Assembly: GCA_024683955.1 (NCBI GenBank)
Contig: JAIKXS010000034.1
Location: 62,001-126,000 of the forward strand
Length of the DNA: 64,000 bases
DNA from: Desulfovibrio sp.
Lineage (GTDB): Bacteria > Desulfobacterota > Desulfovibrionia > Desulfovibrionales > Desulfovibrionaceae
Direction: 5' to 3'
Part shown: piece after piece, positions 26,483 to 62,653 of the stretch
Layout: each line of letters begins with the position of its first letter
Position numbering within the stretch: the first letter of the stretch is position 1
The notes under the pieces: generated by a model
What the model was told of the DNA's origin: nothing
The model's input: the letters and a program-made list of their open reading frames with translations, nothing else
Database searches by the model: none
Program-made: the position numbers and the translations under genes

Positions 26483-26545
26483 AAGGAGGCAGCATTTCCT
26501 CTCCGGCCGTCAGGCCGGGGTCTTCATGCTGAATACGTATACGTG
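26483..26545 (+). promoter_or_regulatory. fabD ribosome binding site separated from its start by a hairpin
   Basis: A perfect AAGGAGG lies at 26483-26489, more than 50 bases before the coding start. Beginning at the very next base, CAGCAT (26490-26495) can pair with ATGCTG (26526-26531), and CCGGCC/GGCCGG (26503-26518) forms an inner stem with loop GTCA. Folding leaves 11 bases between the Shine-Dalgarno and GTG 26543, or 14 to ATG 26546. No other Shine-Dalgarno is near the start. The same design occurs before alr. Confidence 0.55.
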
Positions 26546-27490
26546 ATGAAAACACCTTTCTTGCTTTTTCCCGGCCAGGGGACACAATGCCAGGGTATGG
26601 GGCGCGATCTTGCCGAGGCTGACAGCGAGTGCATGGAGCTTTGGAAGGAAGCCGAGCGTATCAGTGCTCTCCCCCTTCGAGAAATTTACTGGGACGGCGA
26701 CGACAGCGCCATGAGCGACACCAGGGCACTGCAACCGGCGCTGACGGTTGTGAATATTACGCTTTTTAACAGGGTGAAAGGGACGTTTTCCCCTGTTGGT
26801 GCTGCGGGACACAGCCTTGGAGAGTTCTCAGCGCTTGTTTGTGCAGGGGTCCTGTCCGTGAAGGATGCCATTGCCGTTACCTCCCTTCGTGGTTTCCTTA
26901 TGAGCCAAGCTGATCCTGACGGTCAGGGGAGCATGGCGGCCGTTGTGAAGCTCGATCAGGAGACCGTTGCCCGTCTTGTTGAGGAGGCCTCGTCGGAGAC
27001 AGGAGAACTTCTTATCTGTGCCAATTTCAACAGCCCCCTTCAGACGGTTATAAGCGGCACGAAGAAAGCTTGTACGTGCTGCCTTTCTAAAGTCAAGGCT
27101 GAAAAGGGTCGTGCTCTTCCTCTCAAGGTCAGTGCAGCTTTTCACAGCCCCATGATGTCTGAAGCCAATAAGGAGCTATCGCCCCTTTTGCAGAAGGTGT
27201 CATGGCATACGGCCCGATTCCCCGTTTACGGCAATGTGGACGGACTTCCGGAGCGCGACGGGGAGCGTCTGCGTGAAAAGATGCTGACACAGATGGTTTC
27301 TCCTGTCATGTGGATGAAGTCTGTTGAGGAACAGTATCGGAACGGGTGCCGTTCCTGGCTTGAAATAGGTCCAAAATCAATTCTGAACAAAATGGTGACA
27401 GCGTGCCTAGAAGGCAAGGACGATCTGGCGTTTGACAGCATTTCGTCTCTGGAATCGGCTGAAGCCTTTAAAGCCGGCATGGGAGTGTAA
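26543..27490 (+). CDS. fabD: Malonyl-CoA:ACP transacylase
   Basis: The protein has about 315 residues. It loads malonyl from CoA onto acyl carrier protein for fatty-acid synthesis. The nucleophile is Ser91 in GHSLGE (89-94), the oxyanion loop is FPGQGTQCQGMG (9-20), the arginine of SLRG near 115 binds malonate, and AFHSPMM near 198 carries the catalytic histidine. Start GTG 26543 or ATG 26546; neither has a close Shine-Dalgarno (see the leader hairpin). The stop is two bases before argS, and fabD heads the run that goes on through argS and mla. It is not next to other fab genes. Confidence 0.92.
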   Translation: MMKTPFLLFPGQGTQCQGMGRDLAEADSECMELWKEAERISALPLREIYWDGDDSAMSDTRALQPALTVVNITLFNRVKGTFSPVGAAGHSLGEFSALVCAGVLSVKDAIAVTSLRGFLMSQADPDGQGSMAAVVKLDQETVARLVEEASSETGELLICANFNSPLQTVISGTKKACTCCLSKVKAEKGRALPLKVSAAFHSPMMSEANKELSPLLQKVSWHTARFPVYGNVDGLPERDGERLREKMLTQMVSPVMWMKSVEEQYRNGCRSWLEIGPKSILNKMVTACLEGKDDLAFDSISSLESAEAFKAGMGV

Positions 27491-60349: not shown

Positions 60350-61481
60350 TATGATTCCCTCCCAGGGTGAACATAATTATGGTGGTGCGTATACTGAGCG
60401 TACCCGTCGCTTAAGTAGACGGGACGGTATTTATGATCAATGCCTGCTGGATCTTTGCAAACAAGAAAAAGATTCAGGCTGAAAGTCAGATTGCAAATGG
60501 CAAATCATGAAGAAGAGTGCCTTGAAGACGCGGGCTGATCAGACTTCATTGTGTCTCGGACAATGAGGAAGATCCTTTCTCTTTCAGGCCGCAACAGTCA
60601 TAGCCCCCGTGGTCCGCTATACTCCATCCGCATCTCGTGGAGGCGGATAGCCGTGAGATGCGGTAGCAAAAAGGACTGCATGCAGCATACTTCAAAAACT
60701 TTCTGACCTCAATCAGACAGGGGGATCTTGGGATAAAAAGGGAAAATTTTAGCAATATTTTTACTATGGAGTGTCGTGTACCTGATCTTCGCGTTACTTT
60801 CAGATGGGACGGGAGCGAAACGTGCGATCTGTATTTTTTGAGGGTGGGAGTTAGACGTGTTTTTTTTCGCAATTTGCTGAGAATAGCGTTTTTTTTGCAT
60901 AGTTTAAGGTGTGTCATGCTTTTTGTTAGCAAGTATCGTTTTCTTATTTTAGTATTTGTTTTATAGATACAATAATAAAAACAATTATTTAAATATATAA
61001 AGTGTTATTTGTAATTATTTATTGTATAAAATCATATATTTATTATTCAAAATACATTTAGTATTAAATTATAAATTATTTTATGTACGTGTTTTATGAA
61101 ATTAGCATGCTTATATATCAATGATTGTTATAATAGATATATTTGTTGAAACAATTTTTAATATATTGTATGCTCTTATATAGTATATTGTGATTATTTT
61201 GAATATTGAGATAGAAAGTTTCTTCGTATGTCTTATTAAATAATAGATTAAAAATAAAAATACATCTCCTTCTCTTGCCTTTTTGACGACCCCGAATTAC
61301 GTTAATAGGATGTGTGTTGCCGACGGGCATAACCTTCCGGGTGTACCGTCTTTTGTGAGGCTCTTCGTTTTTCGAATTGATTATTGAAAGAGCCTTCCGA
61401 GAGCTGCAGTAGGTGTCCTGTACGGCTGCGGATCGGCTTTGTTAACAGTGGATGTCTTGTCCTTTTATTTTAAGGGATACT
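60350..61481. other. Large intergenic region with a very AT-rich core
   Basis: About 1.1 kb. Positions 60,960-61,260 are extremely AT-rich, with many runs of TATA and ATTT, and hold no gene with a ribosome site. A 70-codon minus frame (ends 61118) and a 128-codon minus frame (60546-60932) overlap it but look like chance. An inverted repeat CCGCATCTC/GAGATGCGG lies at about 60630-60662. No tRNA or known riboswitch was recognised. Confidence 0.5.
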
Positions 61482-61522
61482 AAGGAGGCAGTTGCCCCGC
61501 TAAGCGGGAAACTGATTCTATA
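61482..61522 (+). promoter_or_regulatory. alr ribosome binding site separated from its start by a hairpin
   Basis: A perfect AAGGAGG is at 61482-61488. Starting at the very next base, CAGTT (61489-61493) pairs with AACTG (61510-61514) and CCCGC/GCGGG (61496-61508) forms the inner stem with loop TAA. Folding leaves eight bases before ATG 61523, the normal spacing; unfolded, the distance is 34 bases. No other Shine-Dalgarno or in-frame start lies between. Confidence 0.6.
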
Positions 61523-62653
61523 ATGGATGAGTGTTATTTTTCCCCTTCATGTTGTCATATTGATCTCGCGGCCTTGACCCGCAATTTTTTTCGTATGGGT
61601 GACCCGTCGACCCTGATGCCTGTCATTAAATCTGACGCCTACGGCCACGGCCTTCTTCCGGTTGCCCGGGCGCTTGACAAGGCTGGGGCCCTGCATTTCG
61701 CCGTGGGAACGGTGAGCGAGGGCGCACTTTTGCGCAATGTTGGCTTTCATCAGCAGATCGTGCCGCTTCTCGGTGTCGTGAGTCAGGATGAGTGGAACGC
61801 CTCGTTTGCCCTGAAGCTGACAACCCCCATCCTTGATGTCAAATCCATGCAGATGGCTGCGCACGCCTGCCCGGATCACGAAATTTTTCCTGTAGCGGTA
61901 GCGCTCAATACCGGCATGGGACGTCTGGGTTTCTCCGTCGATGACATGCCCGATCTGATAGAAGGCCTGCACCGTTATCCCATGTTGAAACCGGTTGTGG
62001 CCTTTTCTCATTATGCCTGTGCCGATATTCCCGAGGAATCGAGCTACACGCTTGCCCAGCAGGAACGTTTCAAAAGCATGACCAATGCCTTGCGCGCCTT
62101 TTTTCCTGACCTTTCACGAAGCCTCAATAATTCTGCCGGTCTCCAGGTTTTTGGAGAGGGGGCTTTTGATCTGAGCAGGCCGGGCATTACCCTTTACGGC
62201 GGCAATCCGTTCGTTGGCACCCCCTGGGAGTCCAAAGGCTCGGATTTTGAATGGGTTATGAGTGTCTCTGCCCCGATTCTGCAGGTCCATGCGCTGAAGG
62301 GGGGGGAAAGTGTGTCCTACGGTCGCTGTTTCACGGCACCCCACGATATGACAATCGCCATTCTGGCGATGGGCTATGCCACGGGTTTTCCGAGATCCCT
62401 TTCCAATCGTGCCGATGTCCTGATCAACGGCCGGCGCTGCCCGCAGATCGGACGTGTCTGCATGGGCATGATCGCCTGCGATGTCTCACAGCTTGGCTCG
62501 GCGGAAGCAGGGGACCTTGGGTGGATTATGGGCGGAAACCCTGATCCAGGTCAGCGTGCCGTCACAGCCGACGAACTGGCAAAGGAGCTTGACACCATCT
62601 CTTATGAGGTCCTTTGTCATTTCGGTGCAACCAACCGTCGTGTCTACAGCTGA
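61523..62653 (+). CDS. alr: Alanine racemase
   Basis: The 376-residue PLP enzyme makes D-alanine for peptidoglycan. The PLP lysine is K36 in PVIKSDAYGHG. The catalytic tyrosine is in VSYGRCF near 266. ALNTGMGRLGF, SLNNSAGL and GRVCMGMIACDV are the other family blocks. The frame contains no start closer to the Shine-Dalgarno, so the ATG is fixed and the leader hairpin matters. Confidence 0.96.
   Translation: MDECYFSPSCCHIDLAALTRNFFRMGDPSTLMPVIKSDAYGHGLLPVARALDKAGALHFAVGTVSEGALLRNVGFHQQIVPLLGVVSQDEWNASFALKLTTPILDVKSMQMAAHACPDHEIFPVAVALNTGMGRLGFSVDDMPDLIEGLHRYPMLKPVVAFSHYACADIPEESSYTLAQQERFKSMTNALRAFFPDLSRSLNNSAGLQVFGEGAFDLSRPGITLYGGNPFVGTPWESKGSDFEWVMSVSAPILQVHALKGGESVSYGRCFTAPHDMTIAILAMGYATGFPRSLSNRADVLINGRRCPQIGRVCMGMIACDVSQLGSAEAGDLGWIMGGNPDPGQRAVTADELAKELDTISYEVLCHFGATNRRVYS

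Follow-up and report, generated by a model that had tools for sequence, protein, structure and literature searches.

A probable transposon-end hairpin between the Shine-Dalgarno sequence and the start codon of alr in a Desulfovibrio

Introduction

The alanine racemase gene alr of this Desulfovibrio sp. has its Shine-Dalgarno (SD) sequence far upstream of the start codon, and a hairpin lies between the two. How could translation of such a gene begin, and where does the hairpin come from? These questions were addressed in the stretch of 64,000 nucleotides that carries alr (the window), in its own genome (G000), and in related genomes.

The alr leader in the window

From 61482 on, the leader runs in the order of AAGGAGG, a nested hairpin, 8 nt, and ATG 61523. 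Its features are as follows:

61482..61488, + strand: Shine-Dalgarno AAGGAGG (sequence; anti-SD duplex energy)
61489..61493, + strand: outer stem, 5' arm CAGTT (sequence, fold); CAGCG in the three nearest alr orthologues
61496..61500, + strand: inner stem, 5' arm CCCGC (sequence, fold)
61504..61508, + strand: inner stem, 3' arm GCGGG (sequence, fold), with the loop TAA between the inner arms
61510..61514, + strand: outer stem, 3' arm AACTG (sequence, fold); CGCTG in the three nearest alr orthologues
61515..61522, + strand: 8-nt linker ATTCTATA from stem to start codon, the putative effective SD spacing (sequence; family means of 8.6 and 8.5 nt)
61523..62653, + strand: alr, alanine racemase of 376 aa, with ATG 61523 as the sole usable start (reading frame; protein families)

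The product is an alanine racemase by its matches to TIGR00492, PF01168, and PF00842. An earlier note on this DNA had described the heptamer, the two-part hairpin (CAGTT/AACTG and CCCGC/GCGGG), the eight bases, and the ATG, and had named ATG 61523 as the only possible start of alr. Both statements were confirmed: the frame carries a TAA at 61481-61483, and no ATG, GTG, or TTG occurs from there to 61523. GGAGG is 34 nt away from the ATG in sequence, whereas the stem is only 8 nt away. The duplex between the alr SD and the anti-SD was calculated as -11.9 kcal/mol, compared with -4.4 kcal/mol for the best site near the ATG.

The 44-nt leader segment folds with -16.8 kcal/mol, compared with -8.7 ± 2.4 kcal/mol for dinucleotide shuffles (z -3.43; 1 of 200 as stable). 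The longer segment 61440-61560 is unremarkable against shuffles (z -1.17; 23 of 200 as stable). In the minimum free energy (MFE) structure of the window leader, GGA of the SD is also paired with UCU 61517-61519 (3 bp). No Rfam match at gathering score was found in the window, which holds two members of the module described below; a permissive Rfam search gave four matches, the best with an E of 1.4 and all well below gathering score.

Two further observations concern the surroundings. The DNA upstream of the leader is very A+T-rich at 60900-61299 (16-23% GC in 200-bp windows), and from 61300 on it has 46-61% GC. A perfect TATAAT at 61519-61524 overlaps the alr start codon, with no well-placed -35 evident by eye.

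alr leaders in related genomes

alr was located in 59 of 61 genomes, and at E<=1e-100 in 68 of the 79 genomes of the genus (own genome included in both counts). The leaders of 48 alr loci (L031 and L035 being one contig) and of 18 out of 20 further loci were inspected. A separate scan of contigs returned one alr relative, L031, whose contig is identical with G080:C128. When four alr leaders were aligned with MAFFT, they came out of register, and these alignments were left unused.

The nearest alr orthologues are those of G081, G083, and G024, with proteins 75-76% identical. Their leaders read GGAGG CAGCGT .. ACGCTG, with rewritten inner hairpins and 10 nt to the ATG. Compensatory stem changes in the alr leaders of relatives, which the earlier note had proposed to look for, are present here as CAGCG/CGCTG in place of CAGTT/AACTG. 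Positions 4 and 5 of the outer stem are changed on both sides (T-A to C-G and T-A to G-C), and both stems still pair despite the changed letters. The fold z-scores of these three leaders are about -1. In G079 and G014, whose alr proteins are 71% identical, a distant SD is followed by a different hairpin that folds weakly (z -0.64 and -0.31).

Among the inspected alr leaders, the SD-hairpin-start arrangement was not seen beyond the own genome and these five. Several others in the genus have an ordinary near SD, and one (L028, in G016) has a strong distant SD and a near SD as well. The leader L030 (G034) has AAGGAGG and then a hairpin, but about 28 nt separate the hairpin from the matched ATG; this is perhaps another start or a different arrangement. 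Around the alr orthologues, the flanking DNA seems too diverged for an empty-site comparison.

The leaders also bear on the idea of a short ORF within the hairpin that is translated from GGAGG and translationally coupled to alr. An ATG does lie in the hairpin loop of some copies, but the alr leaders have no common frame or length, and the near start in the window, a TTG at three bases from the SD, opens an ORF of only three codons. Such coupling is barely plausible.

A dispersed module in the genome and its relatives

The earlier note had overlooked the dispersed, transposon-related nature of this arrangement. A scan of about 387 kb of the own genome for SD, hairpin, and start gave 23 matches among 6306 candidate starts, and several of the 23 have identical letters. 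The module consists of GGAGG, the stem CAGCGT/ACGCTG, a variable inner hairpin, 7-14 bases, and the start codon. When the pattern GGAGGCAG..CTGA..start was searched in the whole genome, 54 matches at 48 places were found, compared with 7 for the reversed control. The own genome has 37 leaders that combine an arm of at least 5 bp with an ORF behind it.

Two models were used for searching. Model R1 was made from 21 leaders, including that of alr in the window, and contains the ATG; it found 54 places at E<=1 in the own genome and a match at E<=0.01 in at least 20 of the 79 genus genomes. Model R2 was made from 24 leaders, including those of fabD in the window and of alr in G081, without the start codon and without the window alr leader. 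At E<=0.01, R2 gave at least 47 matches in the own genome, at least 109, 97, and 79 in G024, G083, and G081, respectively, and at least 47 in G079. Across the order, R2 matches at E<=1e-4 occur in at least 27 of 348 genomes and at least 6 of 59 genera.

The window contains a second member:

26485..26548, + strand: GGAGG, stem CAGCAT/ATGCTG, inner hairpin, linker, and ATG of fabD (scan and pattern search)
26546..27490, + strand: fabD-like ACP S-malonyltransferase behind the second member (TIGR00128 with 254.6 bits, just missing the cut-off of 260.9; PF00698)

The fabD leader, itself part of both models, scores 50.8 bits with R1 and 59.3 bits with R2. The window alr leader reaches only 12.6 bits with R2, a weak match to the element-linked family, and was not listed at E<=0.1 in a search of 386 kb. 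Its orthologues score 46.2 (G024), 46.9 (G083), and 54.1 bits (G081, a member of the model). Judged from the sequence, the window alr leader is a diverged member of the family, with its low score, ATGG rather than ATGA at the start codon, and a shorter hairpin. Its tie to the family comes from the GGAGGCAG..CTGA frame, the arrangement, and the scores of its orthologues.

The genes behind the module are mixed and unrelated, both in the own genome and in the relatives. From reading of their proteins, they presumably include galE, fliM, nusA, leuS, rplM, ilvC, and ribH; among the genes read, identities were verified by protein families for fabD and alr. Orthologous genes of sister genomes have the module in common. 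The CAG/CTG at the base of the stem varies hardly at all, and the hairpin loops and inner stems vary from copy to copy. The hairpin changes and can shrink between orthologues, as before a fliM-like gene where it has 7 bp in G000 and is long in G079; the alr leaders behave similarly.

A pyrimidine internal loop, TTTCC/TTTCC, recurs in the leaders though it is unpaired, and solo copies share with the TnpB element of G034 a 5' extension, ahead of GGAGG, that closely resembles AAGGAAAAACAAY. Two ideas about the module were dropped: a regulon, since the downstream genes look too mixed, and pairing of the SD (GGAGG) with CCUCC, which the DNA has as CCTCC in the internal loop on its 5' side, since this pairing is lost when the inner stem changes.

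The same survey bears on the suggestion, made in the earlier note, that the hairpin is an RNA thermometer or a protein or ligand binding site tuning D-alanine synthesis. It is a structured element within the initiation region, and three SD bases are paired in the MFE structure of the window copy. A switch specific to D-alanine synthesis is nevertheless at odds with a module that precedes dozens of unrelated genes, with loops and inner stems that vary between copies, and with a stem whose first pair is predicted to stay formed up to 65 C in four alr leaders. The window also lacks an Rfam match at gathering score. This suggestion is very improbable.

Covariation, pairing, and stem-to-start distance

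In two alignments of 45 and 56 distinct rows, fitted to the structure of the model and with rows related to each other, the outer helix is paired in 97.4% and 99.7% of cells, respectively. The covariation score was 0.191 for the 45 rows (0.112 for shuffles, at most 0.075 on sliding) and 0.248 for the 56 rows (0.132 for shuffles, at most 0.088 on sliding); none of 500 shuffles reached the score of either set. Further measures stand out less clearly: the number of pairs changed on both sides was reached by 7 (45 rows) and 130 (56 rows) of 500 shuffles, and that of further pair types by 0 and 16. Pairing is thus maintained in the relatives, in the alr leaders as well as in the family alignments.

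Distances were measured in leaders selected for two features, an arm of 5 bp or longer and a start 4-15 nt beyond it; this choice bounds the stem-to-start figure. In 34 leaders of the own genome, GGAGG is 44.0 ± 5.1 nt from the start (32-56) and the stem 8.6 ± 1.6 nt (7-14). These are the 37 leaders of G000 minus L110 (43 aa, TTG start), L134 (mutS2-like, doubtful), and L129 (47 aa). Similarly, in 52 leaders of relatives the distances are 49.6 ± 2.0 nt and 8.5 ± 0.7 nt; here 60 loci gave 54 leaders, six giving none, and two with ORFs below 50 aa were excluded. A distant SD that comes to a working distance once the hairpin is folded is therefore found in alr (34 versus 8 nt) and in the 34 and 52 leaders. 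When these 86 leaders were folded from GGAGG to ATG, the AUG was unpaired in 86/86. The outer stem is in the MFE structure of 86/86, a count favoured by the arm selection. At least four of the five SD bases are free in 58/86, and at least two are paired in 28/86.

The role that the earlier note gave to the hairpin, a spacer bringing the distant SD near the start, is supported by pairing kept through two-sided changes and by a stem-to-start distance near 8.5 nt. Under a chance origin, the SD-like heptamer and the hairpin would stand before alr by accident, and initiation would proceed without SD; the weak or missing near SD of several alr leaders in the genus fits with this. A chance origin runs against the z of -3.43 for the 44-nt leader, the covariation, and the 54 versus 7 pattern matches, and its probability is close to negligible.

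Start codons and the ATGA context

Across the clade, an ATG was found within 17 nt of the module at 77 of 77 inspected places, and an ORF of at least 50 aa at 74. Of the three exceptions, we take one from its sequence for a rubredoxin (46 aa) and another for an L36-like ribosomal protein (37 aa); the third gene is truncated by the end of the locus. Since R1 includes the ATG, the 57 of the 77 places that came mostly from R1 matches are biased towards starts. The 20 places from R2, whose model is without the start codon, are at starts in 20/20 (12 from the top of the R2 match list and 8 from the G000 sample).

The start codon is followed by A, giving ATGA, at 69 of the 77 places. For ordinary SD genes the counts are 25/93, 37/124 (G000), and 1/11 (relatives), where the control starts are first-ATG guesses and thus crude. 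The excess has a P of 8e-9 even against a generous background of 60%. In rows of other genomes, ATGA occurs in 37/39 (L239 and L261 being one place). The family as a whole has in ATGA a fixed short target beside one end of the element. In G034, 5 of 11 places have no ORF of at least 50 aa behind the module, as one would expect if insertion also takes place at other ATGA sites.

Adjacency to iscB and tnpB

In G034, several module copies are identical, and all but one of those read share the upstream sequence and diverge right after ATGA. One copy in G015 has this upstream sequence too, up to the end of its contig. The start of a divergent TnpB-like gene lies 47-49 nt upstream of the motif. Contig ends truncate most G034 copies, and the part on contig C126 is TnpB (NF040570, 209.4 bits). 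A Pfam search with 68 residues of the TnpB-like N-terminus gave no match; a longer piece, from L264, matched protein families. The link between L264, a separate contig, and the motif-bearing copies is an identical query stretch (residues 37-68).

In G101, the module copies and the final codons of an IscB gene (NF040563, 302.4 bits) overlap; in G030, G099, and G016, IscB genes or pieces of them stop at the motif or close to it. The same terminal hairpin is thus present on iscB or tnpB elements in 4 of the 9 IscB-positive genomes and in G034, for the family as a whole. IscB occurs in 9 of 79 genomes, of which 8 are motif-positive somewhere (Fisher P 3.7e-5). R2 at E<=0.1 gave no match at the IscB loci of G014, G079, G027, G080, and some of G101, and a partial one in G072; the loci without a full match are mostly fragments or share no more than 40% identity with the query. 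The IscB search gave no match in G000, G024, G081, and G083.

Directly behind IscB/TnpB copies, their remnants, or sequence like the iscB 3' end, 8 of 10 genes match a protein family at E<=1e-10 (several with scores below the equivalog cut-off): aroA, the nadD type, azlC, murJ, a TPR protein, a molybdopterin-domain regulator, an RND adaptor, and glycerate kinase. The other two had no family match.

Several details of these loci may be recorded. In G101, the terminal hairpin itself encodes the last iscB codons, GGGDSSPA and stop in L276 (1142-1191) and GGGDSSPV in L277, with a further case in L298. At L241 1059-1164 (G101:C33), two identical module copies stand in tandem with starts 56 nt apart, as if one element end had inserted at another. 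The TPR-protein gene has an IscB remnant and the hairpin before it in G099 (L303 2132-2758) and a solo module in G000 (65% identical); its G079 orthologue (84% to G000) has a solo module too (loci L303, L102, L189).

Y1 transposase was counted as a check on a REP/RAYT origin. PF01797 was found in 46 of the 79 genus genomes, with 18 matches in G000 (several of them fragments), 3-4 in G024, G081, and G083, and 0 in G014 and G078. G091 has 35 matches and no motif match. These counts do not track the copy number of the module.

The leaders could also be a class made by selection alone, perhaps recognised through the CAG/CTG base by a trans factor, with mobile elements capturing a leader later. The near-invariant CAG/CTG, the sharing of the module by orthologous genes across sister genomes, and the genomes richest in copies being those without an IscB match would all agree with this. 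It does not fit with the ATGA context and the TTTGATGA-like tail that solo copies have in common with copies beside IscB/TnpB, with the identical copies at tnpB or iscB in G034 and G101, or with the five of 11 G034 places without a following ORF of at least 50 aa. We regard selection alone as unlikely.

Discussion

The structure, the covariation, the recurrence at starts, the ATGA context, and the adjacency to iscB and tnpB point to one reading, to which we give a probability of about 0.8: the alr leader is a diverged, domesticated end hairpin of the IS200/IS605 superfamily that serves as a hairpin-bridged, or split, initiation region. The 5' arm of the stem starts right after GGAGG, and its folding in the mRNA would turn 34 nt into 8 nt, so that one 30S subunit could hold both SD and start. 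The module would be the terminal hairpin of an element that bears IscB or TnpB in related species. Such an element would insert directly upstream of ATGA, and therefore often at start codons. Its end would supply GGAGG, the hairpin, and a short linker, so that the gene behind would keep a ribosome-binding site. Solo ends may then have stayed, with drifting hairpin contents, while selection kept the SD, the pairing, and the stem-to-start distance. We infer that it is the folded form that ribosomes use, that the fold is needed for translation, and that the solo copies arose by insertion.

Known systems share parts of this picture. The SD of T4 genes 25 and 38 is described as 27 and 22 nt from the AUG, brought to 11 and 5 nt by structure; the gene 25 structure is reported in close T-even phages and absent from more distant ones (PMC3014915). 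The likeness lies in a far SD brought near the AUG by an intervening structure (PMC3014915). Unlike these single phage genes, the module here is dispersed before dozens of chromosomal genes and has relatives at transposon ends.

In E. coli thrS, the ribosome accommodates the hairpin of the split ribosome-binding site without unfolding it, and a single-stranded domain beyond the hairpin is needed for binding (PMC3936740). The hairpin here lies between SD and start codon, a placement that reportedly differs from that in thrS. Among titles and abstracts of open-access literature, with subscription papers mostly outside, the T4 and thrS cases were found and no transposon end serving as a ribosome-binding site.

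IS200/IS605 ends have a hairpin near the end, a guide tetranucleotide just 5' of its foot, and a short target beside one end (PMC6006769). The module likewise has GGAG(G) right at the foot of its hairpin, with ATGA on the side of insertion, and by this likeness GGAG is a candidate guide. REPs are described as lying largely between genes, the canonical ones with GT[AG]G (PMC6006769). Unlike REPs so described, the module copies stand at start codons, and their GGAGG reads as an SD. The IscB relative DtIsrB prefers an NTGA target-adjacent motif (PMC9581776). ATGA fits NTGA, and iscB genes and tnpB starts adjoin the motif, as would suit OMEGA elements of the IscB/IsrB and TnpB kind (PMC9581776).

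For the family, it is probable that a group of transposons with RNA-guided nucleases (IscB/TnpB) targets start codons through ATGA and ends in a self-contained initiation module, and that its solo ends are the working ribosome-binding sites of some 2-4% of host genes, a share estimated from at least 47-109 matches in genomes of 2.5-2.9 Mb. An element end made of an SD and a hairpin that fixes how far this SD lies from the host ATG would make insertions ahead of essential genes tolerable.

Start-site prediction and models of ribosome-binding sites seek an SD a few bases upstream, whereas dozens of genes per genome here appear to use one at 30-55 nt. The copies form a natural library of hairpin-bridged initiation regions with stems changed on both sides. 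The finding suggests how a transposon can live harmlessly at start codons, and it may tie the target preference of IscB and TnpB to a function in host mRNA.
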